Below, piece by piece: positions 1,731 to 38,022 of a DNA stretch of 38,022 nt (the first letter of the stretch is position 1; every line of letters starts with the position of its first letter). The DNA comes from Deltaproteobacteria bacterium HGW-Deltaproteobacteria-3 (GTDB lineage: Bacteria > Desulfobacterota > Desulfobulbia > Desulfobulbales > Desulfurivibrionaceae). The DNA is taken from assembly GCA_002841785.1 (NCBI GenBank), contig PHAW01000008.1:1-38022 (forward strand), given 5' to 3'. Made by a program: the position numbers and the translations under genes. Below the pieces are notes generated by a model. That model had not been told where the DNA came from and did no database searches. It worked only from the letters and a program-made list of their open reading frames with translations.

Positions 1731-1805
1731 GAACGCCTGCCGGAAAAGAAATTGCCCGGACCAACAACAAGGCTCGGCACGCCGGAACGGCAATCCACGA
1801 AAAGA

Positions 1806-2195: not shown

Positions 2196-2205
2196 TATCG
2201 TTCTC

Positions 2206-3054: not shown

Positions 3055-3099
3055 GGCTCAATACTTCCCGCGTCGTGTTTCCCGGGGTGCAGCCGGAGG

Positions 3100-3774
3100 C
3101 TAAAGCCGCTCCAGCTTTGCCTGCACCTTGTCCTTGACCTCGGGAGAAACCCCCTCATCGGCCAGCACCTTGCCATACATTTCTTTTGCCCTGGGCAGAT
3201 CCTTCTGCAACTCATGAATCCTGCCCATGGCCAGATAGGACTCCCCGGCAAACCCCTTGATCTCCGCCAGGCGCTGATAGGCGGCAAGCGCTTCCGGCAG
3301 TGCATTTTTATGTTCATAGGCCTGGGCCAGGCTCAATTGCACCAGGGGAAAAGCCGGACTCGAGACGGAGAGATCACCGCGGAGCGCCAGATACACCTTG
3401 ACTGCCTCATCATACTGCTGCGCATCAAGGGCCATATGTCCCAGTTCGACCTTTGCCCACAGGGCTGAGCCGGTGCGCCCATACTCGGCAAGAACCTTCT
3501 GCAGAAGCGCCTTGCGCTGTTCAGGCTCCCCCTGCTCAATGGCCTCGGACAACAAAACGGCGGCCCGGTCATTTTGCCTGGCAAGATAATAGCTCAGGGA
3601 CGACCAGCCAACAATTGCCAGCACGCAACACAATACGGCAATTATCAGATTCCGCCTGTTCTCGCGGATAAACCGGATGGCCTTGGGAGGCAGGTTGAGC
3701 TCTTCGAGCAATCCATGCTTCTGCAAAGGCTTGTTTAGAATCTCTTGTTGCAAATAGGTGTTTTGCTCGGACAT
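3100..3774 (-). CDS. Membrane-anchored tetratricopeptide (TPR) protein, YfgM-like
   Basis: The protein of 224 residues has a cytoplasmic N-terminus, one transmembrane helix at about residues 43-63 (LIIAVLCCVLAIVGWSSLSYYL) and a periplasmic part rich in TPR helices (AKVELGHMALDAQQYDEAVKVY; SYLAMGRIHELQKDLPRAKEMY). This matches the YfgM/DUF2133-type layout, proteins that assist at the Sec translocon and in envelope quality control. The specific function here is inferred from the architecture only. It is divergent from xseA, with about 200 bp between them holding promoters for both. Confidence 0.7.
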   Translation of the reverse strand: MSEQNTYLQQEILNKPLQKHGLLEELNLPPKAIRFIRENRRNLIIAVLCCVLAIVGWSSLSYYLARQNDRAAVLLSEAIEQGEPEQRKALLQKVLAEYGRTGSALWAKVELGHMALDAQQYDEAVKVYLALRGDLSVSSPAFPLVQLSLAQAYEHKNALPEALAAYQRLAEIKGFAGESYLAMGRIHELQKDLPRAKEMYGKVLADEGVSPEVKDKVQAKLERL

Positions 3775-3978
3775 GCCTCAACCCCTCAGCGTTGCACTGC
3801 TAGCGTTTTTTATCCTGAAACAACAAAATTTGCCGACACTATACCTTTTACGCCCGGAAAAAGCATCCGTCATTTTATGGCCCTGCTGGCCGCATGCGGA
3901 GCCGGGCGATGAAGAACCGGCACCATCAAAAAAACAAAAAACTTGTCCCTTCCGTGCCGGCCATGCTAGGAAGTGAAC

Positions 3979-5331
3979 ATGCACAGTATAGCCAAGGATC
4001 ATGTTCAAACAGTCAGCGAGCTCACCCAGTCAATCCGCGGGGTGCTTGAGGTTTCCTTTCCCTTTGTGACCGTGGCCGGGGAGATTTCCAACCTGCGTTG
4101 TCCGCACTCCGCCCACCTCTATTTCACCCTCAAGGATGCAACCGCCCAAATAAAAGCCGTGCTTTTCAAGCCCCAGCAACGCTATCTCCCCTGCGCCCCG
4201 GCGGACGGCATGGAGGTGGTCTGCCGGGGACGCATTTCGCTGTATGAAGCGCGCGGCGAATACCAGCTCATTGTAGACGTTCTTGCGGCACAGGGAGCGG
4301 GAGCGTTGCAGCTCGCCTTCGACCTGCTCAAAAGAAAATTGGCCAACGAAGGCCTCTTTTCCGGGGAACGCAAAAAAACCCTGCCGCTGCTGCCCGAAAA
4401 AATAGCCCTCATCACCTCGCCCAGCGGGGCGGCGGTGCATGACTTTCTCAGCATGGCCAAAAAACGATGCGCCGCTGTGCCGGTGGAGATTATCCCGGTC
4501 CGGGTACAAGGGACAGGGGCCATGGAGGACATCGTCGAAGCCATCGCCCTCTGCAACGAACGGGGGCAAAATGACGTCATCGTTCTCTGCCGTGGCGGCG
4601 GCTCCCTGGAAGACCTGTGGACCTTTAACGAAGAAAAGGTTGCCCGGGCCATTGCCGGCTCGCGCATCCCCGTTGTCTCGGCAATCGGCCATGAGGTCGA
4701 CTTCACCATTGCCGATCTGGTTGCGGACCTCCGGGCCCCCACGCCCACCGGTGCGGCCGAGGTGGTTGTCCCCAGCCGCATCCAGTTGTCCGCCCAACTG
4801 CACAACCTCGCCCGTCGGCTTACAAAAACGGTTACGGACAGGCTGGCGTTTTTCCGCGGCGTCATTGAAGCCCACCGAAAGATACTGGGCGACCCCACCT
4901 CTTTGCTTGACCAGTTCCGCCTGACAACAGACCATGCCCTGGCCTCCCTGCAATTCGCTTTTTCCACCGCCCTCCACCAACGCCAGCTCGCCCTGGCCAG
5001 GTTCAGCCAAATCCTTGCCAGCCATAGCCCCCGACAACGCCTGGAATATCAGCGGCAATGGGTGCATGAACTGCGCAGGCGCTTAATCCTGGCCATGCTT
5101 CGCCAGCACGAACGCAAGCGCGCGGCACTGGGGAAAAACGCCGGCCTTCTGCATGCCATAAGTCCGCTGGCGGTTCTTGGCAGAGGCTACAGTATTGTGC
5201 AGCAAAAAAATGGAGTTATCGTGCGGAACAGCACAGAAGTGCATCCTGGGGAAAAGATCAGCGTCACCCTTGGCTGCGGCGGGATCGACTGCGAGGTGAA
5301 AAAAACATGGCCCGGCGGAGCCTGCCCGTGA
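3979..5331 (+). CDS. xseA: Exodeoxyribonuclease VII large subunit XseA
   Basis: The protein is about 450 residues. It has an N-terminal OB-fold DNA-binding domain (VAGEISNLRCPHSAHLYFTLKD) and the catalytic domain with ALITSPSGAAVHDF, VLCRGGGSLEDLWTFNEE and SAIGHEVDFTIADLVADLRAPTPTGAAE. A long coiled-coil follows, and a C-terminal segment LGRGYSIV. With XseB it degrades single-stranded DNA in repair. ATG 3979 is preferred over GTG 3973 because AGGAAG at 3968-3973 then has a 5-nt spacing. No xseB follows, although the two genes are often adjacent in other bacteria. It is the only convincing plus-strand gene of the window. Confidence 0.96.
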   Translation: MHSIAKDHVQTVSELTQSIRGVLEVSFPFVTVAGEISNLRCPHSAHLYFTLKDATAQIKAVLFKPQQRYLPCAPADGMEVVCRGRISLYEARGEYQLIVDVLAAQGAGALQLAFDLLKRKLANEGLFSGERKKTLPLLPEKIALITSPSGAAVHDFLSMAKKRCAAVPVEIIPVRVQGTGAMEDIVEAIALCNERGQNDVIVLCRGGGSLEDLWTFNEEKVARAIAGSRIPVVSAIGHEVDFTIADLVADLRAPTPTGAAEVVVPSRIQLSAQLHNLARRLTKTVTDRLAFFRGVIEAHRKILGDPTSLLDQFRLTTDHALASLQFAFSTALHQRQLALARFSQILASHSPRQRLEYQRQWVHELRRRLILAMLRQHERKRAALGKNAGLLHAISPLAVLGRGYSIVQQKNGVIVRNSTEVHPGEKISVTLGCGGIDCEVKKTWPGGACP

Positions 5332-5420
5332 TCGGGATAGAGGGCCGCCAGGATTGAAGTGAGATGATAAGAATGGACACTTTCTTAAGGGTGGCTCAGG
5401 CCCCCACAAGGAGGTCTTCT

Positions 5421-5483
5421 TTGGCAAAGAGGAAGAAATACACACATCCACAAAACTGTATTCATCCTAACCCCTGCGGATGA
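5421..5483 (+). CDS. Possible 20-residue peptide with a strong ribosome-binding site
   Basis: AAGGAGG at 5408-5414 sits 6 nt before TTG 5421, which opens a 20-codon frame beginning MAKRKKYTHPQN and ending in CG before TGA. It is basic, with two cysteines. It lies 90 bp after xseA where xseB would be expected. Only the first residues resemble an XseB start, so I do not call it xseB. It may be a chance ORF; the support is the Shine-Dalgarno match alone. Confidence 0.25.
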   Translation: MAKRKKYTHPQNCIHPNPCG

Positions 5484-5542
5484 CCCTCGGAACCCGTCAC
5501 ACGCATCTTATTGTTAAAAACCCGCATATATTCTTCCCATTT

Positions 5543-6019
5543 TCATTCCTCCTCTTGCCTCTCCAAAATCTCTCCGGGTTCTTTTTTCACCAGCATGATC
5601 GAACAGGGCATCTTTCTGACCAGTTCATCGTTGCTGCGATTGAAAAGAAGGTCTTCCAGGTGGCCCTCTTCATGGGCAAGCATAATCAGCAGGTCAATTT
5701 TTTCTTCTTGTATGGTTTTGAGAATCTCTTCGATGGGCTCTCCTGTCCGTAGCAGTTCCTTTATAGCCAGACCTTTTGCATTCTCGGAGCCGACAAGCTC
5801 GGAGAGTTTCCGTTTGGCCTCCAAAAGAATATTTTCATACTCTTTTTCAAGCGACAGAGTCCCCATGCTCCAGCCTTTGAGACCGAAGGGATTGTAAACG
5901 CAATGAAGAACATACAATTGCGCCTCATATTTCCGGGCCAATGAAACTCCATATTGAATGGCTTTTCTGGATGACTGAATCATTCTGCTCACAACAAGAA
6001 TGCGCTTATATTCTTTCAT
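5543..6019 (-). CDS. Universal stress protein (UspA family)
   Basis: The protein of 158 residues starts KEYKRILVVSRMIQSSRKAIQYGVSLARKY after the ATG, the usual beta-strand and helix of the Usp fold. It then has EEILKTIQEEKIDLLIMLAHEEG and ends with the CSIMLVKK strand. The classical ATP-binding G-2X-G-9X-G(S/T) loop is not clearly present (LEDLLFNRSNDELVRKMPCS instead), so it may not bind ATP in the usual way. ATG 6019 was chosen for the AAAAGGG sequence five bases upstream. It heads a set of small stress-type genes on the same strand, but its own transcript is probably separate. Confidence 0.85.
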   Translation of the reverse strand: MKEYKRILVVSRMIQSSRKAIQYGVSLARKYEAQLYVLHCVYNPFGLKGWSMGTLSLEKEYENILLEAKRKLSELVGSENAKGLAIKELLRTGEPIEEILKTIQEEKIDLLIMLAHEEGHLEDLLFNRSNDELVRKMPCSIMLVKKEPGEILERQEEE

Positions 6020-6108
6020 AATGACCCTTTTCAAAAAAAACAGCGCTGAACATGACAGCCAAAATTTTGCGCAATGTAATAGTATCCCGGCATGGCACGC
6101 GGACCATG

Positions 6109-6405
6109 CTATTTCCTGGACATAAGCCAGCCCAAAAGCAGACCGGCGATGAAGGTGCCGCCAATGGCATAATATGGTTTCACATGAACGAACTCGTCCG
6201 CGGTCTGGACTTTGTCCAGGAATTGAGCTTCAAGATCGCCGTACTCATTCCTTGCTGCTTCCAGACGTTTCTTCAGTGCGGTTCTGGCTGATTTGATCCG
6301 GTCGTCGAATTCTCCGGAAGTAGCATCCACAAGCGCATGGGCATGGTCAATTATGTAGTGCATTTCCTGGCTCATCGGTTTGTAGTTTTTGTTTGTGGTT
6401 GCCAT
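6109..6405 (-). CDS. DUF883 (YqjD/ElaB-type) membrane-anchored protein
   Basis: The 98-residue protein has a long amphipathic helical part, then a C-terminal transmembrane anchor YYAIGGTFIAGLLLGWLMSRK. The family (ElaB, YqjD) sits in the inner membrane by its C-terminus and is linked to stationary phase and ribosome binding. Here the glycine-rich anchor and the terminal arginine/lysine are as in the family. The ATG at 6405 follows a GAGGTG sequence. Function in this organism is inferred from the family. Confidence 0.8.
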   Translation of the reverse strand: MATTNKNYKPMSQEMHYIIDHAHALVDATSGEFDDRIKSARTALKKRLEAARNEYGDLEAQFLDKVQTADEFVHVKPYYAIGGTFIAGLLLGWLMSRK

Positions 6406-6491
6406 ATTGCACACCTCATCAAGTTACGCTTTTGCTGTATTCTCGCACCGTTAATCAGCTAGAGAAGTTTTCTCGCCTGAAACGTTGCCGC

Positions 6492-6683
6492 TCACCTCCC
6501 CACGCGAATAGTGGAGAGGTAACTGGAAATTCCGAAAACATTCAGGAGCCACAACACCACGGCAATGATCACAACGGCATTCAAAATCGACTTTATGGAT
6601 CTCGCCATTGGGATGAATCGGTTAATGAGCCATAGAATAACACCAACCACGACCAGGACCACGACCACTTGAATTAACGGCAT
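6492..6683 (-). CDS. Small membrane protein, Thivi_2564 family
   Basis: The 63-residue protein starts MPLIQVVVVLVVVGVILWLINRF and contains IPMARSIKSILNAVVIIAVVLWLLNVFG. It thus has two transmembrane helices joined by a short basic loop, matching the Thivi_2564-type family of unknown function. ATG 6683 follows a purine-rich GGAGGGGGATGAG; the longer frame to 6737 has no site. It lies within a group of small stress-type membrane proteins. Confidence 0.8.
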   Translation of the reverse strand: MPLIQVVVVLVVVGVILWLINRFIPMARSIKSILNAVVIIAVVLWLLNVFGISSYLSTIRVGR

Positions 6684-6800
6684 GAGCTCATCCCCCTCCC
6701 TGTTTTTCTTTTGGAAACAAAAACCGCCGATCCGCACCCTGTTATGCTTTGCCCGGCATATTGGGTTTAAGAATCAAGCTCGCCACTCTGCTTGCAAGAA

Positions 6801-6826
6801 CCGCTTGAACAGTCTTCTGCAAGCGG
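6801..6826 (-). terminator. Hairpin after the DUF3309 gene
   Basis: CCGCTTG (6801-6807) pairs with CAAGCGG (6820-6826), 20 bp beyond the stop of the 51-residue protein. On the minus strand it is followed by TTCTTG rather than a long T run, so it would be a weak terminator. Confidence 0.35.
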
Positions 6827-6845
6827 CATCAGACCCTTCGGTTCG

Positions 6846-7001
6846 CTAAAGCCGCCCCAACAGCATCAGGATGAGGAGGATCAAAAGAATCAAGCCAAGC
6901 CCGCCGCTCGGGTAGTACCCCCACTCTCGGCTGTGAGGCCAAGTGGGGATTGCGCCCAACAGCATCAGAATCAGAACAACGAGCAAAATCGTTCCAAGCA
7001 T
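6846..7001 (-). CDS. DUF3309 small hydrophobic protein
   Basis: A 51-residue protein starts MLGTILLVVLILMLLGAIPT, then WPHSREWGYYPSGGLGLI and a second helix ending LLGRL. This is the full pattern of the DUF3309 family: two hydrophobic helices flanking a W-rich loop with the GYYPSGG motif. AAAGGAGG lies 8 nt before the ATG. The function is unknown. In proteobacteria such proteins commonly sit beside other stress-type membrane proteins, as here. Confidence 0.85.
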   Translation of the reverse strand: MLGTILLVVLILMLLGAIPTWPHSREWGYYPSGGLGLILLILLILMLLGRL

Positions 7002-7154
7002 AATATTCCTCCTTTGTACTGAAGAAACTCGCTACCGCCAGCGGGCTCAGTCCCCTACCAGAACAGGAACACCCTCCGGGATTGTTCTTTCCACTGCCGT
7101 CTATTGCAGGCGGCAGCGCCATCCAGCTTATCTGCACGGAGTTTTAAACGCGAA

Positions 7155-7988
7155 CTACTTGATGGCCATCCGGTTCGTTACGCTCTTCACTCCGTGAACA
7201 TCGCTGGCGAGTTTGGTGGCCAAACTCAACTCGGCTGCATTATTGGCCTTGCCATATAATGTAACCGCGCCACGATTTGTTTCGACCTTGGTGTTGAGGG
7301 CGCTGGTCGAGTGGTGAGAAAGCAGCGTTATCTTGACTTGGGCGGTGATGGAGGCATCATCGATCTTTTCGCCTACGGTCCGCGCCTTCTTTGCTGGTTC
7401 TGTCACGGTCATCTGATTGCTTACACCTTTAACCCCTTCGACATCCTTGGCGTATTCCGTCGTCAATTCCCTTTGGGCCTGACTGGCAGCATCGCCTCGC
7501 AGAGTCACGATACCGTCTTTGACATCAACCTCGGTTGTGCCGGCACGCACACTGCGATGAAAGAGGAGCGTCATTTTCACCTTATCGCGGAGCCAAGCAT
7601 CGGAATTTGCGAGGGGAGCTGCTCCTTTAACTTCCAGCCTGTTATCTACATTTTTAACTCCGGGCAACCCTGCGACGGTCTCCTGGGCCAATGATTTGTG
7701 GAAGTTTGCGGCAACGCTCCCCGTCAAGGTAACATTCCCTTCCTTGGACTCAATTACGATGTCATCATCCTGAAGATAGGTTTTGAACACATACGACTGC
7801 CTGGCAGAGGATTCGATGCGGCGGTCCATATTTTCAGTTTGCAGAGGCTTATCGAGCGAGCCCATGGCCATCGCGGCCATCAGTAACGTTTCGATCCGGG
7901 TGTCCTTACTTCCAGCTTGCACAGGCGCATCGAACGGTCCCATGACCAACGCAGCCGCCAGTAACGTTATGAAACGCATTGTTTTCAT
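7155..7988 (-). CDS. Periplasmic protein with three BON domains (OsmY-like)
   Basis: The 277-residue protein has a Sec signal peptide (residues 1 to about 25). Three BON domains follow at about 65-125, 130-200 and 210-277, each closing with a G-V-K-x-V-x-N motif (LPGVKNVDNRL, VEGVKGVSNQM, VHGVKSVTNRM). BON domains bind phospholipid or envelope surfaces, and OsmY is the osmotic-shock example. A GAGGAGGGGG site precedes the ATG. The segment after the signal peptide looks like a copy of the signal region itself (LLAAALVMGPFDAPVQ versus LLMAAMAMGSLDKPLQ, each ending in RIE). Confidence 0.85.
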   Translation of the reverse strand: MKTMRFITLLAAALVMGPFDAPVQAGSKDTRIETLLMAAMAMGSLDKPLQTENMDRRIESSARQSYVFKTYLQDDDIVIESKEGNVTLTGSVAANFHKSLAQETVAGLPGVKNVDNRLEVKGAAPLANSDAWLRDKVKMTLLFHRSVRAGTTEVDVKDGIVTLRGDAASQAQRELTTEYAKDVEGVKGVSNQMTVTEPAKKARTVGEKIDDASITAQVKITLLSHHSTSALNTKVETNRGAVTLYGKANNAAELSLATKLASDVHGVKSVTNRMAIK

Positions 7989-10312: not shown

Positions 10313-10328
10313 AGCAGGATATGTGCCA
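10313..10328 (-). promoter_or_regulatory. Sigma-54 promoter A, upstream of the VWA/OmpA gene
   Basis: On the minus strand TGGCAC-ATATC-CTGCT has the GG-N10-GC spacing required for RpoN (GG at 10327-10326, GC at 10315-10314). Transcription would start near 10302, giving a leader of about 140 nt before the VWA/OmpA ATG. The same TGGCAC-N5-CTGCT form recurs at 30.1 and 37.4 kb. The rest of the 10162-10518 gap holds the enhancer palindrome and no other gene that I can support. Confidence 0.75.
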
Positions 10329-10422: not shown

Positions 10423-10465
10423 CTCAGCCTGACATATCAGGAAATTCCTGATATGTCAGGCTGAG
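10423..10465. promoter_or_regulatory. Palindrome A: putative activator site (UAS) and gsp operon terminator
   Basis: A perfect 21-bp inverted repeat with a one-base centre at 10444 is built on the core CCTGACATATCAGGAA. The core recurs near 30.245 and 37.518 kb. Its centre is 117 bp from the GG of sigma-54 promoter A, a typical enhancer distance. On the minus strand the stem is followed directly by GTTTTTTTC, and it lies 54 bp after the gspB stop, so this copy may also end the secretion operon transcript. Confidence 0.7.
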
Positions 10466-28011: not shown

Positions 28012-29793
28012 TTACGGAGCAGGCACGTTAACCGTATTGGTGTCCAAAGCAATCGTGCCGGCAGTGATCGCTCCGGTCAATATCCTGCCGTTTATCACGG
28101 CGCCAGTCACGCCAGTGGTATCCCTGCCGGCCACTATGGTTCCATAAAAGATCGTGCCCACGCCGATAGTCGCATCGGAAGTAGGAACCCAAAACACGTT
28201 CTTGGCCTGCGCGCTGTTGGCCAGCGAAACACTGGCACCCGTCGTCAACGAGGAGCCGATCTGGAAAACCCATACGGCATCCGCGTCGCCCCCTGCGTCA
28301 AGAACGAGAGGGGTCGCGACCGACATCGTGCTGCCAGAGGTATAGGTGCCAGGGGGAATTCCTAAAGGATATAAGGCGCCCAAGTCTTCGCCAGCATTTA
28401 TGGTTGTTCCCGGCGGCAAAGTCTTGGCAAAGTTATAAGCGACCAGCAGGTCGGCCCTGGCCTGTGCGGACTCTGCATCGTTGATGTGGATGGCGCCGTT
28501 CACCACACCCGGCGGAAATCCAGTCATTGAAGTGCCTGGATCCAACGAAACATCCCCGTTAATCACGGTGGGGCCTGTATTGGTGATCGCGGAGGTTGCC
28601 ATGATCCCGAAAGTGCTGGCCGAGCCAAGGTTTACGGCCCCCGGCGCCAAACCGGTCCCGGTTGTAAAGGTCCACACATAATTACTTGCCAGAGCATTGC
28701 CTGCCAGGTCCTTGGCCCCGGTGGTAATCGTGCCGGTATAGATGGAGCTGGGCAGAAGATTGGCGTCTGGCATAAAGGTCGCAATGTTGGTCAAGGCATC
28801 ATAGGATACTAGTCCTCCTGGTATGGGTAGGCCAGGCCCAGTCACGGTAAAGGTGATGTTGGTGATCGTTACCGGGTCCATCGCCTCGCTGAAGGTGGCG
28901 GTGACGATCTGGTTAAGGGGCACATTGATTGCGCCATTAACAGGAACCGTAGAAAGCACTGTGGGGGGGGTGGTATCTGGGTCAGACCCGGTTGACCAGG
29001 ACCAGACATACGCTGCGATCATGGCATTGCCTGCCAGATCCTTGGACGCGATGCTGATCGTTGAGGTAAAGAGGGTATTGGCTGCGAAAACGCCTCCGGT
29101 GGGGGTAAAGGTCGCGGTCTTGCTGGCGACGGAATACGTCACCGTGCCTGATACGGGAACGCCAAGGGTTGTGTTCTGCACCGTAAAGGAAGGCGGTGTG
29201 GTGATGGTTAACGGGTTCATCGCTTCATTAAAAATTGCGGTGGAGATTCTGTTCGTGGGCAACCCTGTGGCGCCGGCCGTTGTCCCAGATATGCCGTAGA
29301 CACCCGTGGCAATAACAAAGGGTGCGGTGGTGTCCGCGGTCGCTCCGGTGGTAAAGGTCCAGACATAGTTGTTGGCCAGGGGTGTGCCTGCCGTGTCCGT
29401 TGCCGCCGTGGTAATCGTGGCGGTATAGAGGGTGCTGGCCAGAAGATCGGCAGCCGGCAGGGTAAGGGTTGCCACATTGCCGGTCGTTACATAGGTGACC
29501 GTCCCGCCGGCAACAACCGTTCCGCCTTGGGCCAGGGTAAAGCTTGCCGTGGTGAGGGAAGCGGGCGCCATCGCCTTGCTGAAGGCGGCGGTGATTATTT
29601 TTGTGTTGATCGGTACGCCGGTGGCATTATTGAGCGGAGCCACGGCGGTTACGGTGGGCGCGATTACTGCATCGCCGCTTCCTAGAACAGGAGCTTGCCC
29701 GTCACTCCCTCCCCCTCCACAGCCTGTAATGGAAAAAACACTCAGAATTAGAATAAACAAAAGATACATTTGCCGAGCCTTAAATATTTTCAT
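28012..29793 (-). CDS. Surface lipoprotein with Ig-like (Big_5) repeats and DUF3494 domain
   Basis: The 593-residue protein is a lipoprotein (SITGC, Cys25, then a glycine-rich start). Three SbsA-type Ig-like repeats follow at about 45-155, 155-270 and 273-385, each ending YVWTFTTG or YVWSWSTG. A C-terminal DUF3494 domain is at about 390-593 (INGDVSLDPGTSMTGFPPG; AYNFAKTLPPGTTI; GTIVAGRDTTGVTGAVINGRILTGAI). DUF3494 is known from ice-binding and ice-adhesion proteins but also occurs in bacteria not exposed to ice, where it is thought to be adhesive. ATG 29793 follows AAGGAGGGG. A sigma-54 promoter and enhancer palindrome lie 320-470 bp upstream. Confidence 0.88.
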   Translation of the reverse strand: MKIFKARQMYLLFILILSVFSITGCGGGGSDGQAPVLGSGDAVIAPTVTAVAPLNNATGVPINTKIITAAFSKAMAPASLTTASFTLAQGGTVVAGGTVTYVTTGNVATLTLPAADLLASTLYTATITTAATDTAGTPLANNYVWTFTTGATADTTAPFVIATGVYGISGTTAGATGLPTNRISTAIFNEAMNPLTITTPPSFTVQNTTLGVPVSGTVTYSVASKTATFTPTGGVFAANTLFTSTISIASKDLAGNAMIAAYVWSWSTGSDPDTTPPTVLSTVPVNGAINVPLNQIVTATFSEAMDPVTITNITFTVTGPGLPIPGGLVSYDALTNIATFMPDANLLPSSIYTGTITTGAKDLAGNALASNYVWTFTTGTGLAPGAVNLGSASTFGIMATSAITNTGPTVINGDVSLDPGTSMTGFPPGVVNGAIHINDAESAQARADLLVAYNFAKTLPPGTTINAGEDLGALYPLGIPPGTYTSGSTMSVATPLVLDAGGDADAVWVFQIGSSLTTGASVSLANSAQAKNVFWVPTSDATIGVGTIFYGTIVAGRDTTGVTGAVINGRILTGAITAGTIALDTNTVNVPAP

Positions 29794-30113: not shown

Positions 30114-30129
30114 AGCAGAATGCGTGCCA
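30114..30129 (-). promoter_or_regulatory. Sigma-54 promoter B, upstream of the DUF3494 gene
   Basis: Minus strand TGGCAC-GCATT-CTGCT has GG at 30128-30127 and GC at 30116-30115 with N10 between, as RpoN requires. The expected start is near 30103, so the leader to ATG 29793 is about 310 nt. The gap 29794-30372 holds this promoter, the palindrome at 30229-30261 and no gene that I can support. Confidence 0.75.
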
Positions 30130-30228: not shown

Positions 30229-30261
30229 CCTGATATATCAGGAGACTCCTGATATATCAGG
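30229..30261. promoter_or_regulatory. Palindrome B: putative activator site (UAS)
   Basis: A perfect 16-bp inverted repeat, CCTGATATATCAGGAG with its inverse around A30245, contains the same core as the palindromes at 10.44 and 37.52 kb. Its centre is 117 bp from the GG of sigma-54 promoter B. Each half is itself nearly palindromic (CTGATATATCAG), suggesting two adjacent dimer sites. Confidence 0.7.
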
Positions 30262-30372: not shown

Positions 30373-31401
30373 TCACATGAGCCAGCGTTTTTTCAGCAAG
30401 AGATATGAAAATAAAGAGGTTATCAGGCCGACTGAACAGAGATATATCCATTCCAGAGGAAAAGTCGATATTCCGCCACCCTCCAGCAGGATTGCCTTGA
30501 TTGGCCCATAAAACTGATAGGAAGGCAATACCGGAGCAAAGGAATGCAGTTTTTGCGAAAAATCGGATAACGCGGAAGGAAGCAGCAGGGGCAGATAAAA
30601 AAGGACGCCCAAGGTCCTGGCACTTGCCTGCGTGCGGCATAAAAAGCCCAAGAATATGCCAAACGAGCTGAAGCAGAAACTCCCAACTCCTATGAAGGCA
30701 AAATAACTCAGGCTGTCTTCAATTTCAAATTTACCCAGGAGATGCAGGAAGATAACCGCCAGGTGGATTAAAATCATCCCTAAGAACAACTTGGCAAGCA
30801 ACCACTCACATTCACGCACCGGGGTTTGCAACAGGCCAAGGAGCAATTTTTTCTCTTTTTCCTCGGCAATTTGCGCAGGAATCACAATGAAGCCGACCAG
30901 TAAAACCAACATTAAAATCCAGGTGGGCAGCGTCTGTCTTTGGATCCCGCTATCACGCAGAGACCTGATGTCAGCAAGCCAGTTTTTGCTCTTCCCTTCC
31001 ACGGCTATTTGCAAGGCGGAAAATCCTTCGACAATGGCAATGGTTCGAAACGAGGCTTTTTCCAAAACCAACAACTCTAAACTGTGCGGTTCCTTTTCAG
31101 ATTTCAGCAAAAACCCGTCTATTTTTTTTTCTTTTAACCATCTTCTTCCTTCCTCTTCAGTGGCAAGCCAAGAAATTACAAATAATTTGTCCGCTGCTTT
31201 CAAGCTTTCAATTATAACCGGAGAATATTCCACATGCTCAATGAGCCCGATCTGTATTGTTTGCAGCTTTTCATTTTTCTGATCGACGAATTGCAAGGAC
31301 AAAAAAACAAATAATGGAATAAATAATATGAGATAGATGGTCTTGTTTTTAAAGGCAATGGCCAAATCATTCAGCGTTAAGGTGACAATATTTCGTATCA
31401 T
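30373..31401 (-). CDS. ABC-2 type transporter permease
   Basis: The 342-residue protein has an N-terminal helix (TIYLILFIPLFVFLSLQFV), a large extracytoplasmic loop (residues 45-155) and five or six further helices (TWILMLVLLVGFIVIPAQIAEEKEKKLLLGLL, then SCF..GIFLGFLC). The EEKEKK-x-LLxL motif is typical of ABC-2 exporter permeases. It partners the ATPase that overlaps its start by four bases. The substrate is not predictable from sequence. It lies downstream of the hybrid kinase and ATPase on the same strand, so one transcript is possible. Confidence 0.85.
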   Translation of the reverse strand: MIRNIVTLTLNDLAIAFKNKTIYLILFIPLFVFLSLQFVDQKNEKLQTIQIGLIEHVEYSPVIIESLKAADKLFVISWLATEEEGRRWLKEKKIDGFLLKSEKEPHSLELLVLEKASFRTIAIVEGFSALQIAVEGKSKNWLADIRSLRDSGIQRQTLPTWILMLVLLVGFIVIPAQIAEEKEKKLLLGLLQTPVRECEWLLAKLFLGMILIHLAVIFLHLLGKFEIEDSLSYFAFIGVGSFCFSSFGIFLGFLCRTQASARTLGVLFYLPLLLPSALSDFSQKLHSFAPVLPSYQFYGPIKAILLEGGGISTFPLEWIYLCSVGLITSLFSYLLLKKRWLM

Positions 31402-32078
31402 GCGTAGAGATTCTCGTAAATTTTTGACTGGAAATATTCCTGGGGCGGGCCGTCAAAAACCAGACTTCCCTGATGCAGCAGCATGATGCGCGTGGCAAGG
31501 GTTTTGATCTCTTCGGGACGATGGGAGGTGAAGAGGATTGTTTTCCCTGAGGCATGGGTGCTTTTCAGCAGCCTGTACACCTCTTTCGTCATCTCGAAAT
31601 CCAGGCCGGAGGTTGGCTCATCAAAAAGAAGGACCGGCGGATCCGCCAAAAGAGTACGCCCGATGCTCACCCTTTGCTTTAAGCCCTTGGACAAAACCTG
31701 CACCTTGTTATGCCGATAGGTGAGCAGATTAAACTCTTTCAAGATTTCTTCTATGCGTGAAAAAGGTATTTGAAAAAGACGGGCAAAGAGTTTGAAGTTG
31801 TATTCGACGGAAAAAAAATCAAACAGGTTGGGCGTTTCCGGGACAAACCCGATCTTCCGCACCAACGCCATCCTGTTTTTCAGGTTGATCCCATCCACCA
31901 AAACCTCTCCGCTGTCGGGAATGATCCAACTGGCCAACATCTTCAGCAGCGTGGATTTCCCGGCCCCGTTATGCCCGACAACGGCAATCAACTCGCCTTG
32001 TTCCACTCCAAAGCTGGCCGGGAGAAGCCCTCTCGTTCCATTATAGACCTTCGCAAGCTTCTGAACCTCAATCAACAT
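31398..32078 (-). CDS. ABC transporter ATP-binding protein
   Basis: The 226-residue protein has Walker A GHNGAGKST (residues 35-43), signature LSKGLKQRVSIGR (129-141) and Walker B VLLFDEP (149-155), followed by the H-loop region TSHRPEE. The Q-loop position reads VPETPNLF, with E instead of Q as in many ABC-2 exporters. It powers the permease of the adjacent gene. The start at 32078 overlaps the 3' end of the kinase gene by 11 bp, which suggests cotranscription. Confidence 0.9.
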   Translation of the reverse strand: MLIEVQKLAKVYNGTRGLLPASFGVEQGELIAVVGHNGAGKSTLLKMLASWIIPDSGEVLVDGINLKNRMALVRKIGFVPETPNLFDFFSVEYNFKLFARLFQIPFSRIEEILKEFNLLTYRHNKVQVLSKGLKQRVSIGRTLLADPPVLLFDEPTSGLDFEMTKEVYRLLKSTHASGKTILFTSHRPEEIKTLATRIMLLHQGSLVFDGPPQEYFQSKIYENLYA

Positions 32079-34122
32079 GATAAATCTCCATCTTCTCCCT
32101 GTCAGCCAACGGGCTCGATGCGCTGTTCTTTCGGCTTCCCCTCAGCACCTCGGCCACTTTGACGCCCAGATCCTTCATCGAAAATGGCTTCTCGATAAAG
32201 TTCACGCCTTCGTCCATCACCCACTGAGCGCCTATCACGTTAACCGAGTAGCCGGACATGAACAGAATTTTCATATCGGGGCACAGGACGTGCAACCGTT
32301 CCGCCAAGTCTTTGCCGTTCATTCCCGGCATAACCACATCGGTGAGAAGAAGGTGGAGTTCGGCCATGTGTTCCTCGGCCAGGGCAATGGCCTCGTCCGG
32401 CGTGCCTGCCGCCAGCACCCGATACCCTAATTTTTCCAGCATCATTGTGCCCATCTTTAAGAGCGCAGGCTCGTCCTCCACCAACAGCACTGTCTCCCCC
32501 TGGCTTGGCGGGATTTCCACAGCCCTTTCCCGCCGGGCATCGACGACTTGCGCCGCTTCCCGGGGCAGGTACACCCTGAATGTCGATCCACATCCAGGTT
32601 CGCTGTAAACGTTAAGAAACCCGTTGTTCTGCTTAACGATGCCGTACACCATGGACAGTCCCAAACCCGTTCCCTGTCCGACCTCCTTGCTGGTGAAAAA
32701 CGGCTCGAAGATTTGGTCCTTGGTCTTCTTATCCATGCCGCAGCCATTGTCGCTGACGGCCAACAACGCATAGTCTCCGGGCACAAACCCGAGATGATCA
32801 GCGCAATAGGCCTCGTCAAAGACCGAGCTTCCCGTTTCTATCGTGATCTTGCCGATGCCGGCAATGGCGTCCCTCGCGTTGACACAAAGATTGGCCAGAA
32901 TCTGATCGACCTGGGTGGGGTCCATCTTCACCGGGCCCAGTCCCTTTTCGGGCAGCCAGACCAAATCGATGTCTTCGCCGATGAGCCGGCGCAGCATGGT
33001 AAGCATGCTCTCCACCGTTTGATTCAGATCAAGCGCCACGGGAATAATTGTCTGCTTACGGGCAAAAATCAGCAATTGCCGGGTAATATCCGTGGAACGG
33101 CGGGCGGCCTTAATGATTTCCTCAAGGTCACCATGCAGTGGCTGATCCGGATCCACCTTGCGCAGAGCCAGTTCCGCATACCCGAGAATCACGGTGAGCA
33201 TGTTGTTGTAATCGTGGGCAACTCCACCCGCGAGCAAACCAACCGCCTCCATCTTCTGGGCCTGCAGGAACTGGCCCTCCAATCGCAGATGCTCGGTGAT
33301 GTCCCGTCCTACGGCCACGTAGTTAACGATCTGCCCCAAAGCGTCGCGCACCGGCGAAATCGTGGTTTCCTCGGTGTAGAGAGTCCCGTCCTTGCGCTTG
33401 TTGACCATCCGGCCGCTCCAGGTTGTGCCGCCGGAGACGGTCTCCCACAGGTTGCGATACAACAGTTCGTCCTGCTCGCCGCTCTTGAGGATGCGCAGAT
33501 TCTGCCCGACGGCTTCCTCTCCGGAGTAGCCCGTCATCCGTTTGAAGGCCGGATTGACGAACTGGATGGTCCCCTGGGCATCGGTCACAAAAATGCCCTC
33601 GCCAACCTGCTCGATGGCCGCCATCAACCGCGTGCGCTCGGCCTTGGCCCGCTTTTGGGCGGTGATGTCGCGGATGTTGCACTGGATCACCTTGCTGTGA
33701 TCCACCAAGTACACATTGCTGACAAACTCCACGGCGATGGATTGCCCCTCTTGGGTTTCCAGCGGCAAATCCTCATAGCGGATGTATTCGTTATCTTGCA
33801 GGGCCTGAAAAGCATCCTTGGACGCGGCAATGTCTTTGAATACCCCGAGTTCCCAGATATGCTTCCCGCATAATGCCTCGTGGGAATACCCGAGCAACTG
33901 CAACAGGAAAGGATTGGCGTCAACCACCTTGCCCGTTACGGCATCAAGAATCAAGATCCCGTCCTTGGCCGACTCAAAGAGCCGGCGGTAGCGCTTTTCG
34001 GAATCTTGCAGCGCCTCCCCGGCATTCTCCTTTTCCAGCAAGGCCTTTTCCAGTCGGGCAATTTGCTTACTCAACTCGATGTTGGCGAGGAAAATTTGAT
34101 TCTCGGCATGCGTATCAGACAT
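32068..34122 (-). CDS. Hybrid sensor histidine kinase (PAS-PAS-HisKA-HATPase-REC)
   Basis: The 684-residue protein has no transmembrane segment, so it is cytoplasmic. It has PAS domains at about 45-160 and 165-285 and a HisKA domain with H303 (GGVAHDYNN). A HATPase follows (NLCVNARDAI near 411, DNGCGMD near 458, TGLGLSMVYG near 485), and a C-terminal receiver domain with D595 (LLLTDVVMPGMNG) and K645. The output partner is not encoded beside the kinase; the sigma-54 activator at the right end of the window is a candidate. ATG 34122 follows GAGG; the frame continues upstream without a start signal. Confidence 0.9.
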   Translation of the reverse strand: MSDTHAENQIFLANIELSKQIARLEKALLEKENAGEALQDSEKRYRRLFESAKDGILILDAVTGKVVDANPFLLQLLGYSHEALCGKHIWELGVFKDIAASKDAFQALQDNEYIRYEDLPLETQEGQSIAVEFVSNVYLVDHSKVIQCNIRDITAQKRAKAERTRLMAAIEQVGEGIFVTDAQGTIQFVNPAFKRMTGYSGEEAVGQNLRILKSGEQDELLYRNLWETVSGGTTWSGRMVNKRKDGTLYTEETTISPVRDALGQIVNYVAVGRDITEHLRLEGQFLQAQKMEAVGLLAGGVAHDYNNMLTVILGYAELALRKVDPDQPLHGDLEEIIKAARRSTDITRQLLIFARKQTIIPVALDLNQTVESMLTMLRRLIGEDIDLVWLPEKGLGPVKMDPTQVDQILANLCVNARDAIAGIGKITIETGSSVFDEAYCADHLGFVPGDYALLAVSDNGCGMDKKTKDQIFEPFFTSKEVGQGTGLGLSMVYGIVKQNNGFLNVYSEPGCGSTFRVYLPREAAQVVDARRERAVEIPPSQGETVLLVEDEPALLKMGTMMLEKLGYRVLAAGTPDEAIALAEEHMAELHLLLTDVVMPGMNGKDLAERLHVLCPDMKILFMSGYSVNVIGAQWVMDEGVNFIEKPFSMKDLGVKVAEVLRGSRKNSASSPLADREKMEIYHVD

Positions 34123-34171
34123 AGCAACAACCTCAATCTTCTTGCCGAAGGTTATCCGAGGGGCCGGCGAA

Positions 34172-34651
34172 TCAGGTCGCCCGCTCTTTTTCAAGACGAT
34201 CTTCCAGTTCACCGATGTAGGCGGCAAGGGTATTTCCCGATTGCTCGACCGCGGAGCGGAGATCACGATCAAGCTGGTCCAGCCTTGCCAGCACAATCGC
34301 CCTCGACTCCGCGTCCAGGCCAGCCTGTCTCGTCAGATCCGCCTCAAGAAACCCGCGCAGTTCGGTAAAACGCGAAGCCTCGGCTTGGCCGGCAAGCTCT
34401 CGGTTGGCCTGCAGCTCCCGGGCGTGGCGGCGGGCCTCAAGGAGTACCGACGTCTGGAGATACACCACAAACACAAGAAACAGCGCCGCGAGAAAAGCCA
34501 CCATGCCAAGCATGACCAGGCCCAGCGGCGCCTGAACATCGGCAACCCCCAAGGAAAGCGGGGTCGGCGTCATGAATGCGCTCCAGTTGAGCGCAGTGAA
34601 AGCGGCAATTGCGACCACGGTCAGCAACACAAACAGGGTGCGAACCTTCAT
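34172..34651 (-). CDS. LapA/DUF1049-like membrane protein
   Basis: The 159-residue protein has two transmembrane helices (about 5-25 and 42-64). The second is followed by a soluble coiled-coil (ARRHARELQANRELAGQAEASRF ... LEDRLEKERAT). The layout with NWSAFMTPTPLSLG between the helices matches LapA-type proteins, whose E. coli homologue acts in lipopolysaccharide regulation; the long coiled-coil is like the version in sulfur and nitrogen-cycle proteobacteria. AAAGGAG lies before the ATG. It is probably in the small-stress-gene cluster and may be cotranscribed with the kinase. Confidence 0.65.
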   Translation of the reverse strand: MKVRTLFVLLTVVAIAAFTALNWSAFMTPTPLSLGVADVQAPLGLVMLGMVAFLAALFLVFVVYLQTSVLLEARRHARELQANRELAGQAEASRFTELRGFLEADLTRQAGLDAESRAIVLARLDQLDRDLRSAVEQSGNTLAAYIGELEDRLEKERAT

Positions 34652-34787: not shown

Positions 34788-35078
34788 TTATTTTTTCAGC
34801 TTGGCGCCGACATCTCGAACCCCATCGCGCAATGCGCCCCAAGCGCTCTCCACTTCTTCTTTAAGATGCTCCCACGCATCCTCCTTCGCCTCGCCCAGCT
34901 CCTTCAGTTTGGCCTTGGTGGCTTCAACCCCCTGCTCAAGGTCATCAATCTGCCGGGCATATTTGATCCGGGCGTCGGCGACAGAAATTTTGGCCTTGGC
35001 CCGCAACTCGGATAATTTCGCCTGCGCCAGTTCCACCTCGGCTTCTATCTTCTGTTTATAAGCTTCTCTCGTGCTCAT
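34788..35078 (-). CDS. Small coiled-coil stress-type protein
   Basis: The 96-residue protein is almost entirely heptad-like helix (MSTREAYKQKIEAEVELAQAKLSELRAKAKI ... KLKELGEAKEDAWEHLKEEVESAW). It has no signal peptide or membrane segment. It resembles the sll1863-type or apolipophorin-like coiled-coil proteins found beside GlsB and BON genes. The function is unknown. AAAGGAG precedes the ATG, and spacing to GlsB is about 33 bp. Confidence 0.7.
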   Translation of the reverse strand: MSTREAYKQKIEAEVELAQAKLSELRAKAKISVADARIKYARQIDDLEQGVEATKAKLKELGEAKEDAWEHLKEEVESAWGALRDGVRDVGAKLKK

Positions 35079-35111: not shown

Positions 35112-35363
35112 TTAGGCTTTCTTGAAAAGTCCGAGTAATAACAGCAGGATCACAGCTCCCAGAGTAGCTGTCACGATTGAGCCGATTACACTGCCCGCGG
35201 CAATTGCCAACAACCTGAACAAGAACCCGCCTACGACCCCACCGATAAGGCCAATAATGATATTCCCCTGCAGGCCGAAGCCCCCACCCTTCATGATTGT
35301 TCCGGCCAGAAAACCCGCCGCTGCGCCTACTGCAAGAGAAATCAACACGCTTACGAAGTCCAT
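35112..35363 (-). CDS. GlsB/YeaQ/YmgE-family stress membrane protein
   Basis: The 83-residue protein has three glycine-rich helices. The second motif GFLAGTIMKGGGFGLQGNIIIGLIGGVVGGFLF is the transglycosylase-associated signature, and the C-terminal helix ends LLLLLGLFKKA. The family is small and inner-membrane, induced by stress in many bacteria; enzyme activity has not been established. A GAGGAG site precedes the ATG. It lies between the DUF2959 lipoprotein and the coiled-coil gene. Confidence 0.9.
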   Translation of the reverse strand: MDFVSVLISLAVGAAAGFLAGTIMKGGGFGLQGNIIIGLIGGVVGGFLFRLLAIAAGSVIGSIVTATLGAVILLLLLGLFKKA

Positions 35364-35418: not shown

Positions 35419-36069
35419 TTAATTCGCGCCACCTTGCGCCATTTCTCTTTTAGCGCCATCGAGTGCGGACAATACCGGCAAAACTGCATTTCTCAAAACG
35501 GTCCCGTCGTTTATGGCCTTCCGGGCAACCGGAGTAATGGATGCAATTCCCTTGTCGGTGAGGTCCGTCGAGAGGAACGACTGAATTTCCTTAATATCGC
35601 GCATGTAGGCAATGAACCAGCCTTTCACGCCGATGCTGGACTCGGATATTTTCCTATATACCGTATTCAGGTCGGAACGCCGCTGTTCACTGAGTTCCCG
35701 GATCTGCGGATTGGTGTAGGTATTCCCCTGCTTCTCCCACTCGGCGAAGTAGTCCTTGCCCCGAACGCTCATCTCATCGGTGTGCTTGATCAACTTTTCC
35801 CCCAAACGCTCCATCTTGACGACGTTGTCTGAATATGTCTCAAAAGCCCCTTTCGTATCAGACAACCCCGGCGTAATGAGTTTCTCCAGCGAGAGCCCGG
35901 TCGCATCGATCTGGACAACGGCTTGCCGTATCTCGCTGTCCACGACCTCCATTTTGGCGGTGGTTTTTTCAGCGCGACCTGAACCGGTCGTCGCGCAACC
36001 AGGAAGGAGGAGGAGAAACCCAAGCAACGGGGCAACGAGAGGGAATACGGATTTGATTCTAAATGTCAT
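35419..36069 (-). CDS. DUF2959 lipoprotein
   Basis: The 216-residue protein has a lipoprotein signal ending LLLLPGC (Cys25). A helical domain follows with SLEKLITPGLSDTKGAFETYSDNVVKMERLG, EMSVRGKDYFAEWEKQGNTYTNPQIRELSEQRR and GVKGWFIAYMRDIKEIQSFLSTDLT. This is the DUF2959 pattern, whose function is unknown. AAGGAG lies before the ATG. It is likely periplasmic or outer-membrane anchored. It fits with the envelope-stress set around it. Confidence 0.85.
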   Translation of the reverse strand: MTFRIKSVFPLVAPLLGFLLLLPGCATTGSGRAEKTTAKMEVVDSEIRQAVVQIDATGLSLEKLITPGLSDTKGAFETYSDNVVKMERLGEKLIKHTDEMSVRGKDYFAEWEKQGNTYTNPQIRELSEQRRSDLNTVYRKISESSIGVKGWFIAYMRDIKEIQSFLSTDLTDKGIASITPVARKAINDGTVLRNAVLPVLSALDGAKREMAQGGAN

Positions 36070-36124: not shown

Positions 36125-36346
36125 CTAGCCCTTCTTGCTTGCCACGAGCAGGAGCCCGCCGCCAATTATGATCGCCCCCACGCCGGCCCAAACCGGAACG
36201 TTGACCTTCTGCTTTTCCTGCACCGACAGCTCAAGCGGTCCCAGCTTGGCTTCATGGGTCTCCTTGGTATAGCTGAAACCGCCATAGACCAACCCCAGAA
36301 TCCCGGCCGCGATCAGCAGGATTGCCGCAATCTTGAGTGCGTTCAT
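36125..36346 (-). CDS. Small two-helix membrane protein, function unknown
   Basis: The 73-residue protein has hydrophobic ends (MNALKIAAILLIAAGILGLVYG and PVWAGVGAIIIGGGLLLVASKKG) and a charged periplasmic loop with SYTKETHEAKLGPLELSVQEK. Similar proteins are common in this kind of stress gene cluster in proteobacteria, but I do not know a role. GGAGGAG lies directly before the ATG. Confidence 0.75.
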   Translation of the reverse strand: MNALKIAAILLIAAGILGLVYGGFSYTKETHEAKLGPLELSVQEKQKVNVPVWAGVGAIIIGGGLLLVASKKG

Positions 36347-36476: not shown

Positions 36477-36623
36477 CTATAGACGGCGGCCCTGAATGAT
36501 ACGAAGCAGAACCACCACGACCGCGACAACCAACAGGACATGAATGAGTCCGCCCATGGTATGCGAGGTGACAAACCCCAGAAGCCAGAGGACGACCAGG
36601 ATGACGACAATGGTTTCGAGCAT
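36477..36623 (-). CDS. lmo0937-family small membrane protein
   Basis: The 48-residue protein starts MLETIVVILVVLWLLGFVTS and ends VVVLLRIIQGRRL, with HTMGGLIHVLLVVAV between. It is thus two helices with a short loop, matching the lmo0937-type family of very small membrane proteins. The longer open frame upstream is not coding; AAGGAG lies eight bases before this ATG. Function unknown; the family is often found beside stress genes. Confidence 0.85.
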   Translation of the reverse strand: MLETIVVILVVLWLLGFVTSHTMGGLIHVLLVVAVVVVLLRIIQGRRL

Positions 36624-37010: not shown

Positions 37011-37076
37011 TCAGGTGAGCTTCATAATTACTATCACGAGAATGACCACCACTAAGACCGCAATAACGAATCCCAT
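37011..37076 (-). CDS. 21-residue hydrophobic membrane peptide (second of a pair)
   Basis: The frame reads MGFVIAVLVVV, then ILVIVIMKLT and TGA. It forms a single transmembrane helix with a basic or polar end. AAAGGAGAACAAC precedes the ATG. It is a sequence paralogue of the peptide encoded 34 bp upstream, with the shared pattern M-x-FVIAVLVVV-x-LV-x-VIM. It is too short for standard gene callers. The pair lies downstream of sigma-54 promoter C. No known family is recognised. Confidence 0.6.
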   Translation of the reverse strand: MGFVIAVLVVVILVIVIMKLT

Positions 37077-37109
37077 GTTGTTCTCCTTTGTAGAATGTTT
37101 TTATCCTTG

Positions 37110-37175
37110 CTACACCAAGTACATAATTACATACACCAGCACAACAACAACCAACACGGCGATAACAAATTCCAT
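37110..37175 (-). CDS. 21-residue hydrophobic membrane peptide (first of a pair)
   Basis: The frame reads MEFVIAVLVVV, then VLVYVIMYLV and TAG. It is a single transmembrane helix. AAGGAAGGG lies five bases before the ATG. It shares 15 or more of 21 residues with the next peptide and has exactly the same length. It would be the first gene from sigma-54 promoter C, after a leader of about 200 nt. Two strong ribosome-binding sites and the paralogy support real translation. Confidence 0.6.
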   Translation of the reverse strand: MEFVIAVLVVVVLVYVIMYLV

Positions 37176-37385
37176 TTTACCCTTCCTTTCAGGTTTTACC
37201 TGACTAACACCCTTAATCTTGTTGACAAACTGATGTACACCCCGTTAAGCACCAACAAAAATCAGGCATCGCTTTGCGATAGTCCTTACAATCCCTCTCT
37301 CATCGCGATAATTTCCAAGGCATCTTTTCGATGCCCCTATCGCAACACAAGAGAAACGCACCTTGGTCTTTCCATGGATGCTTAA
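37176..37385 (-). other. Leader between sigma-54 promoter C and the peptide genes
   Basis: About 200 nt of probable untranslated leader. It includes a hairpin GGCATC-TTTTC-GATGCC (37319-37335) and a longer-range pair TTGCGATAG (37274-37282) with CTATCGCAA (37337-37345). No open frame has a ribosome-binding site here. The structures could regulate translation of the peptides. Confidence 0.35.
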
Positions 37386-37401
37386 AGCAGAATGTGTGCC
37401 A
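37386..37401 (-). promoter_or_regulatory. Sigma-54 promoter C, upstream of the peptide pair
   Basis: Minus strand TGGCAC-ACATT-CTGCT has GG at 37400-37399 and GC at 37388-37387 (N10 between). The start is expected near 37375. It points toward the two 21-residue peptides and possibly the whole stress cluster below. Confidence 0.75.
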
Positions 37402-37417: not shown

Positions 37418-37459
37418 CGCATAAGTTCCAATCCTGCCGAAATCATTGGAACTTATGCG
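37418..37459. repeat. 15-bp perfect inverted repeat between promoter C and palindrome C
   Basis: CGCATAAGTTCCAAT (37418-37432) and its exact inverse (37445-37459) surround a 12-nt loop. It lies between the sigma-54 promoter and the activator site, downstream of the activator gene on its own strand. No T run follows. It could be an operator for a second regulator or a 3' end hairpin of the activator transcript. Copies A and B do not have it. Confidence 0.5.
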
Positions 37460-37502: not shown

Positions 37503-37533
37503 CTGACATATCAGGAGACTCCTGATATGTCAG
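37503..37533. promoter_or_regulatory. Palindrome C: putative activator site (UAS), overlapping the activator stop codon
   Basis: A perfect 15-bp inverted repeat, CTGACATATCAGGAG with its inverse around A37518, shares the core of palindromes A and B. Its centre is 118 bp from the GG of sigma-54 promoter C. It overlaps the last codons of the sigma-54 activator gene, whose stop is at 37530-37532. Confidence 0.7.
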
Positions 37534-38022
37534 AAATTATTTCTATTTCTTTGGATGCCCAATCTGTGCATTTTCGATTCAAGCGTCTTTGGGTTGAGGC
37601 CTAAAATCGTTGCCGCCCCGCTTTTGCCGCTTACCCGCCAACCGGTTGCGTCCAACACATCGACAATATGGCGTCTCTCCAGATCCTCAAGGGTCCCGGA
37701 CGGGGCGGGGCCGGACTGCGCAATCTTGGGCAACTCTATCTGCAGCACCGGGCCGGTGGCGACAATCATCGCCCGCTCGGTGGCATTTCGCAGTTCTCGC
37801 ACATTGCCCGGCCAGGAATAGGCGTGCATGGCCTGAACGCTCTTCGGCGAGATGGATTCGATCCGCTTGTCCATGCTCTTGCTGAACTCTTGCACAAAAG
37901 ACCACACCAGCGGCACGATATCCTCCCGGCGCTCCCGCAGAGGCGGCACCGTAATCTGGAAAATGTTCAAACGGTAGTACATGTCTTGCCGAAAACTGCC
38001 CGCGCTGACCAACTCGGCAAGA
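37530..38022 (-). CDS. Sigma-54 dependent transcriptional activator, C-terminal part (runs off window)
   Basis: The last 163 or so residues are present. They begin in the AAA+ domain (FRQDMYYRLNIFQITVPPLRERREDI, the arginine-finger region), then the sensor II segment YSWPGNVRELRNATERA. A C-terminal helix-turn-helix follows (GWRVSGKSGAATILGLNPKTLESKMHRLGI) of the FhlA/NorR type with the K-T-L-E-S-K-M pattern. Such proteins remodel RpoN holoenzyme from a distant binding site. The N-terminal signal domain is outside the window. Its own 3' end carries palindrome C. It is the natural candidate to bind all three palindromes, but this is inferred from position. Confidence 0.9.
   Translation of the reverse strand, partial: LAELVSAGSFRQDMYYRLNIFQITVPPLRERREDIVPLVWSFVQEFSKSMDKRIESISPKSVQAMHAYSWPGNVRELRNATERAMIVATGPVLQIELPKIAQSGPAPSGTLEDLERRHIVDVLDATGWRVSGKSGAATILGLNPKTLESKMHRLGIQRNRNNF

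Follow-up and report, generated by a model that had tools for sequence, protein, structure and literature searches.

The window, that is, the whole stretch of DNA analyzed here, comprises 38,022 nucleotides of contig PHAW01000008.1 (assembly GCA_002841785.1) from the Desulfurivibrionaceae genome Deltaproteobacteria bacterium HGW-Deltaproteobacteria-3. Near one end, it carries two very short genes together with a set of regulatory elements:

37011..37076, minus strand: peptide B gene, MGFVIAVLVVVILVIVIMKLT, 21 aa plus stop; open, with a Shine-Dalgarno (SD) site, conserved, under purifying selection
37110..37175, minus strand: peptide A gene, MEFVIAVLVVVVLVYVIMYLV, 21 aa plus stop; open, with an SD site, conserved, under purifying selection
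37386..37401, minus strand: sigma-54 -24/-12 promoter, TGGCACACATTCTGCT; 10 of 11 consensus positions, 226 nt upstream of the peptide A start
37504..37532, no strand assigned: 29-bp palindrome, TGACATATCAGGAGACTCCTGATATGTCA, proposed activator binding site (UAS); centre 117 bp upstream of the -24 element
37530..38022, minus strand: sigma-54 activator with AAA+ lid and Fis HTH; truncated at its N-terminus, where the window ends

The original prediction, according to which two 22-codon frames with strong SD sites encode paralogous single-helix peptides that would not be expected by chance, was reproduced to the exact coordinates. The SD sites lie a few nucleotides 5' of each start (AAGGAAGG, 37188-37181, for peptide A; AAGGAG, 37088-37083, for peptide B), and the two peptides, which are 76% identical, share the motif M-x-FVIAVLVVV-x-LV-x-VIM as claimed. 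When ORFs with an ATG start, an SD site, a length of 18-30 aa and a mean hydropathy of at least 2.5 were counted, two were detected in the 906-bp region against none in 5000 order-1 Markov sequences of the same composition, and no others were found elsewhere in the window on either strand. Both frames are open in the congeners G007, G004 and G014, with length, start, stop and SD site all retained. Summed over pairwise comparisons, synonymous to non-synonymous changes amount to 41.5 : 15.5 in A and 60 : 25 in B, and third codon positions dominate (13/7/37 changes at positions 1/2/3 in A, 19/6/60 in B). The pairwise dN/dS is ~0.05-0.2 in most pairs and 0.5 in one pair with few changes; judging from these alignments, both peptides appear to be mostly under strong purifying selection among congeners, and the two frames are almost certainly genuine coding genes.

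Exact matches to a degenerate DNA pattern encoding M-[GED]-F-x-I-A-V-L-V-V were sought in one genome per species (84,980 species) and found on 14 contigs labeled as Desulfobulbaceae/Desulfurivibrio, Desulfuromonadales, Syntrophaceae, Nitrospirota and others. Every match lies in an intact frame of 20-24 aa with an SD site, so that the stops and frameshifts in homologous loci that had been named in advance as evidence against the frames did not materialize. Because the scan requires the exact motif, this spread is a lower limit. With added profile searches, the family grew to 36 distinct sequences of 20-24 residues in 25 genomes, mostly draft metagenome bins, of Desulfobacterota and Nitrospirota. 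Its signature, M-[GED]-[FL]-x-I-[AG]-[VI]-L-V-V-x-x-L-V within a single hydrophobic helix of 20-24 aa, is present in both window peptides, for which neither Pfam nor NCBIfam gave a match above the curated cut-off. L8 and L13 are invariant in the 36 distinct sequences, and V10 and V14 are each kept in 35; V, I and L are chemically interchangeable. The conservation has no significant helical periodicity at 100 degrees (p = 0.21), and so does not establish a packing face. The peptides are often encoded in tandem pairs, as a rule one G-type and one E/D-type, with exceptions including G238 (two G-types) and G007 (two E-types), while G940 has three copies; some family members end in a YLAKRT-like tail.

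The occurrence in a second phylum, Nitrospirota, is independently supported by G642 and G940. A further module, at 1442-3807 on the short 3.8-kb contig L049 of a Thermodesulfovibrionales bin, encodes a partial ATPase 88% identical and an activator ~70% identical to those of the window's genus, which indicates recent transfer or mis-binning.

Both the sigma-54-type site 5' of the peptides and the adjoining activator gene are present as originally described, and sigma-54 control of the peptides gains support from sequence, given that sites like TGGCACACATTCTGCT were identified upstream of 17 of 21 peptide loci compared with ~0.11 expected per locus. At 12 of 26 loci, the activator gene stands immediately 5' of the peptides; the L040 homologue of the activator is a PAS-AAA+-Fis protein of 579 aa that scores best with an FhlA-type model. 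All the sequence elements of a sigma-54 regulon are found here, namely, a GG-N10-GC -24/-12 element, an activator gene and an upstream activator site. The phage shock (Psp) system, by comparison, is defined by PspA and a PspF-type activator without a sensor domain, whereas the homologue carries a PAS domain and no PspA was found among the scanned neighbours.

The palindrome, which reads TGACATATCAGGA-GAC-TCCTGATATGTCA in the window and, across genomes, has the form TGAYATATCAGGA-N3-TCCTGATATRTCA with its centre 114-118 bp 5' of the -24/-12 promoter, is present at five places in the whole genome. Three exact copies are in the window, each 116-117 bp 5' of a same-strand sigma-54 site; the second and third, with their sites, are:

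30231..30259, no strand assigned: palindrome copy 2
30114..30129, minus strand: sigma-54 site 2, TGGCACGCATTCTGCT, upstream of a Big_5/ice-binding surface protein (28012-29793)
10430..10458, no strand assigned: palindrome copy 3
10313..10328, minus strand: sigma-54 site 3, TGGCACATATCCTGCT, 5' of the gene for an exported VWA-type protein with its start at 10161 (the domain assigned on its G004 homologue)

The same palindrome with the 114-118 bp spacing was detected in G007, G004, G014 and G015 and, in the Nitrospirota sample, in G646 and G940; it is absent from three tested congeners that lack the module and was not found in the two genomes tested from the other family of the order and the Desulfuromonadales (G028 and G641), groups in which the activator is only ~50% identical or not adjacent. 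Other palindrome-linked genes encode BON, VWA, Big_5/ice-binding, two-partner-secretion (ShlB, TPS) and PRC-barrel proteins. From their sequences, the palindrome and promoter units are predicted to form an undescribed sigma-54 regulon of surface and envelope proteins that is shared with some Nitrospirota, and the peptides come first in its predicted lead operon. These functions fit the proposal that sigma-54 is a general controller of the bacterial exterior (PMC3162934). The palindrome was also considered as a terminator and rejected, there being no T-run after it on the transcribed (minus) strand and a fixed distance from three promoters.

Several smaller features accompany this arrangement. 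Between palindrome and promoter lies a 15-bp inverted repeat (CGCATAAGTTCCAAT / ATTGGAACTTATGCG, 37418-37432 and 37445-37459) that is largely kept in G007 and G004. The ~200-nt 5' UTR between the predicted sigma-54 start and peptide A (37176-37385) contains small hairpins, for example at 37281-37267, followed by a T-run, a possible attenuator. In G014 (L043:2152-5457), two paralogous sigma-54 activators are encoded in tandem, one with a receiver domain, and the second is split into two frames (3711-5300 and 5332-5457).

Downstream of the peptides, on the same strand, the window encodes a block of envelope and stress-type proteins followed, 4.9 kb away, by an ABC exporter:

36477..36623, minus strand: lmo0937-family small membrane protein (DUF5670)
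36125..36346, minus strand: 73-aa small membrane protein, no family above cut-off
35419..36069, minus strand: 216-aa lipoprotein-like protein, weakly DUF2959-like (below cut-off)
35112..35363, minus strand: GlsB/YeaQ-type transglycosylase-associated membrane protein
34788..35078, minus strand: sll1863-family stress response protein
34172..34651, minus strand: LapA-domain-like membrane protein (below cut-off)
32068..34296, minus strand: PAS-PAS histidine kinase with receiver domain; true start probably inside the frame, which overlaps the ATPase frame by 11 nt
31398..32078, minus strand: ABC exporter ATPase, 226 aa, conserved partner of the peptides
30373..31401, minus strand: ABC-2 permease, 342 aa, conserved partner of the peptides

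Lmo0937-type, GlsB-type, sll1863-type, lipoprotein-like, LapA-like and histidine kinase genes make up the block in the window and its congeners, and such envelope genes, 4-10 kb in all, are inserted between peptides and ATPase in the window's genus. Across the family, the next recognized gene after the last peptide is the ATPase in 19 of 26 loci, on the same strand and 15-304 nt away, and a 226-aa ATPase is followed by a 342-aa ABC-2 permease wherever the contig runs on. A permease search of 258 genomes of the order matched nine, eight of them with the peptide, so that eight genomes have both, one the exporter only, two the peptide only and 247 neither (Fisher 9e-13); in a sample of 395 genomes drawn evenly from the phylum, exactly the same four have both and 391 neither (Fisher p ~1e-9), both p-values being inflated by phylogenetic relatedness. 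In G202, the lone exporter-only genome, the ATPase gene is preceded by a frame with an SD site for a divergent peptide of 21 aa (MAGVLVIVVLVLLIVFLAKRI), which has no match in NCBIfam; both genomes with the peptide only, G004 and G246, have contigs that break off within the ATPase gene. Within the genus, presence and absence of peptide and exporter coincide, 12 of 17 members having neither. The peptides are thus encoded and inherited together with a transporter, as are small subunits of the KdpF, AcrZ and VraH kind, and by gene order and co-occurrence the exporter link appears strong. The permease was found in no plasmid, and no account of the peptide/exporter pair was found among open-access papers.

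An exception is G638, in which a second peptide pair precedes tamA/tamB with no ABC genes nearby, suggesting that the peptides may not be strictly exporter subunits. This pair is located at L038:7630-7536 (minus strand), behind a sigma-54-like site (-89), and the TamA (Omp85) and TamB-like genes span 1472-7227 (minus strand).

The AlphaFold model of the permease (pLDDT 75) shows membrane helices, with a mixed alpha/beta domain placed after the N-terminal ones and before the later ones; the model weakly resembles ABCH, ABCA and ABCG lipid exporters and NosY (TM 0.36-0.57), which at most suggests an envelope or lipid-like component as the substrate. In sequence searches of the PDB, the permease had no match and the ATPase had generic ABC matches.

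Sequence comparison establishes the coding status of the peptides, their family, their operon linkage and co-occurrence with the ATPase and permease, and the arrangement of promoter, palindrome and activator. The family, the sigma-54 promoter and the near-constant company of the exporter together indicate that the peptides are probably tiny helper or regulatory subunits of that exporter; specifically, we assign a probability of about 0.58 to the reading that these tandem single-helix inner-membrane peptides serve a dedicated ABC-2 exporter as small subunits, accessory or regulatory in function. Under this model, the PAS domain of the activator would read a cytosolic signal, and the activator would bind the palindrome and fire the peptide/exporter operon; the peptides would lodge in the inner membrane against the permease and stabilize or tune it. 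The exporter would transport an envelope component, lipid-like or other, and BON, VWA, Big_5/ice-binding and two-partner-secretion proteins of the same regulon would meanwhile remodel the surface. The physical interaction between peptide and permease is one that we infer from the conserved gene association. The peptides may be regulatory, as originally suggested, and the exporter would then be their likeliest target. A broader view, which we hold tentatively and at somewhat less than even odds, is that these ABC-2 exporters form an undescribed class whose 21-residue single-helix subunit is obligatory and often comes as two heterotypic versions in tandem (one G-type and one E/D-type). The subunit would be among the smallest conserved transporter subunits known, and the exporters would be governed by an undescribed sigma-54 envelope regulon that has travelled from phylum to phylum as one unit.

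Usual gene finders have a size limit that the peptide genes do not reach; nevertheless, the genes are conserved across phyla, and their presence predicts that of one exporter. If the peptides are subunits, they illustrate the small size at which a transporter component can still function. Beyond what was originally noticed, the ABC exporter pair and the palindromic activator site prove to be the informative context of the peptides, and exporter and palindrome provide a handle on a new sigma-54 regulon of the cell surface in Desulfobacterota and Nitrospirota. A practical rule is to check 5' of ABC-2 ATPases for SD-preceded frames of ~21 codons.

By analogy, the functionally nearest known cases appear to be VraH with VraDE, KdpF with KdpABC, AcrZ with AcrB, and MgtR with MgtC/MgtA. 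VraH is ~55 aa long and encoded after the transporter genes, AcrZ has 49 aa and KdpF ~29 aa, MgtR is encoded by the last gene in the PhoPQ-controlled operon of one of its targets, and phenol-soluble modulins (PSMs) are ~20-residue leaderless peptides with a dedicated ABC-2 exporter. In arrangement, the peptides resemble VraH of the VraDEH system of Staphylococcus, likewise a small membrane protein whose gene, also duplicated (VraH2), accompanies those of an ABC ATPase and a permease; VraDE belongs to an NsaRS-controlled antimicrobial-peptide resistance module (PMC6291627, citing Popella 2016). VraH is, however, longer and follows the transporter genes, whereas the peptides of the window family precede the ATPase. 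KdpF (KdpFABC) and AcrZ (AcrB) are single-helix small proteins that stabilize or tune a transporter (PMC7267776), a functional likeness, but they belong to other transporter classes (P-type ATPase and RND) and have neither sigma-54 control nor tandem pairs. MgtR of Salmonella is likewise a tiny hydrophobic peptide that regulates membrane proteins (PMC6813294), but it is present in a single copy and targets MgtC and MgtA.

The main rival reading, although an unlikely one, is that the peptides are general membrane-stress proteins of the sigma-54 envelope regulon that act on the bilayer itself or on the regulator and share the operon with the exporter for co-expression only. The original guess of a membrane-stress role fits the neighbours (GlsB-type, lmo0937-type and sll1863-type small membrane proteins in the window, BON proteins, and CsbD-like genes 5' of the peptides in L042 and L048) without being shown by them, and the pair before tamA/tamB in G638 also speaks for it; at most loci, however, no stress genes lie between peptide and ATPase while the exporter is nearly always there, and the strict L/V conservation exceeds what bulk hydrophobicity needs. 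Quite improbable is a role as cargo, in which the ABC-2 transporter would export the peptides, or pull them out of the membrane, as leaderless ribosomal products, in the way that Pmt handles PSMs (PMC5080381). The 20-24 aa length, the lack of a leader, the tandem near-identical copies, the dedicated ABC-2 exporter and the presence of PmtCD among the permease model's weak structural matches (E = 0.0098) would agree with it, but PSMs are amphipathic and secreted, whereas the peptides are uniformly hydrophobic, with a mean hydrophobicity of 0.85-1.04 and a hydrophobic moment of 0.03-0.11, values typical of a transmembrane helix. It is this absence of amphipathicity that makes cargo less likely, and the surrounding regulon is of the surface/envelope type.

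Translation of the frames could instead control the downstream genes in cis, through nascent-chain insertion or stalling. The frames are indeed very short and, within the 5' part of the operon, always precede the ATPase, yet we consider leader peptides of this kind very improbable because the spacing between peptides and ATPase ranges from 15 nt to several kb, with intervening genes in the window's genus; conservation at the amino-acid level over the whole frame and the common occurrence of two or three copies argue in the same direction. The toxin-like role also guessed at originally fares worst: a type I toxin of the Ibs, TisB or TimP kind, checked by an antisense RNA, is highly improbable, even though the peptides resemble known membrane toxins in length and hydrophobicity (TimP: PMC7667032). 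The Rfam search of the region gave only sub-threshold chance matches and promoter-like sites at the locus did not exceed the shuffled expectation, so that no trace of an antitoxin was found, and the link to one exporter operon across two phyla, under sigma-54 control, would be left unexplained.

Similar helices were encountered in longer proteins. The lmo0937-family protein (DUF5670/NF033488) of the same operon is also a small membrane protein whose second helix resembles the peptides, but it has 48 aa, two helices and its own family model, and that helix scores 49-56 compared with at least 79 for members of the peptide family. Profile matches in G479, G602, G618, G925 and G872 were excluded because they sit in long frames of 135-192 codons; in G925 and G872, the match is the C-terminal helix of a longer protein, and the G925 protein was confirmed as a member of the PA2779 family (NF033919). 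In a Nitrospirota member of that family, the C-terminal helix shares ~16 of 21 residues with peptide B, a likeness that may reflect common origin or convergence of membrane helices; the PA2779 helix, unlike peptide B, is part of an exported protein of ~130 aa. PA2779-type proteins with a peptide-B-like end helix are encoded at L094:1186-1584 and on L095.
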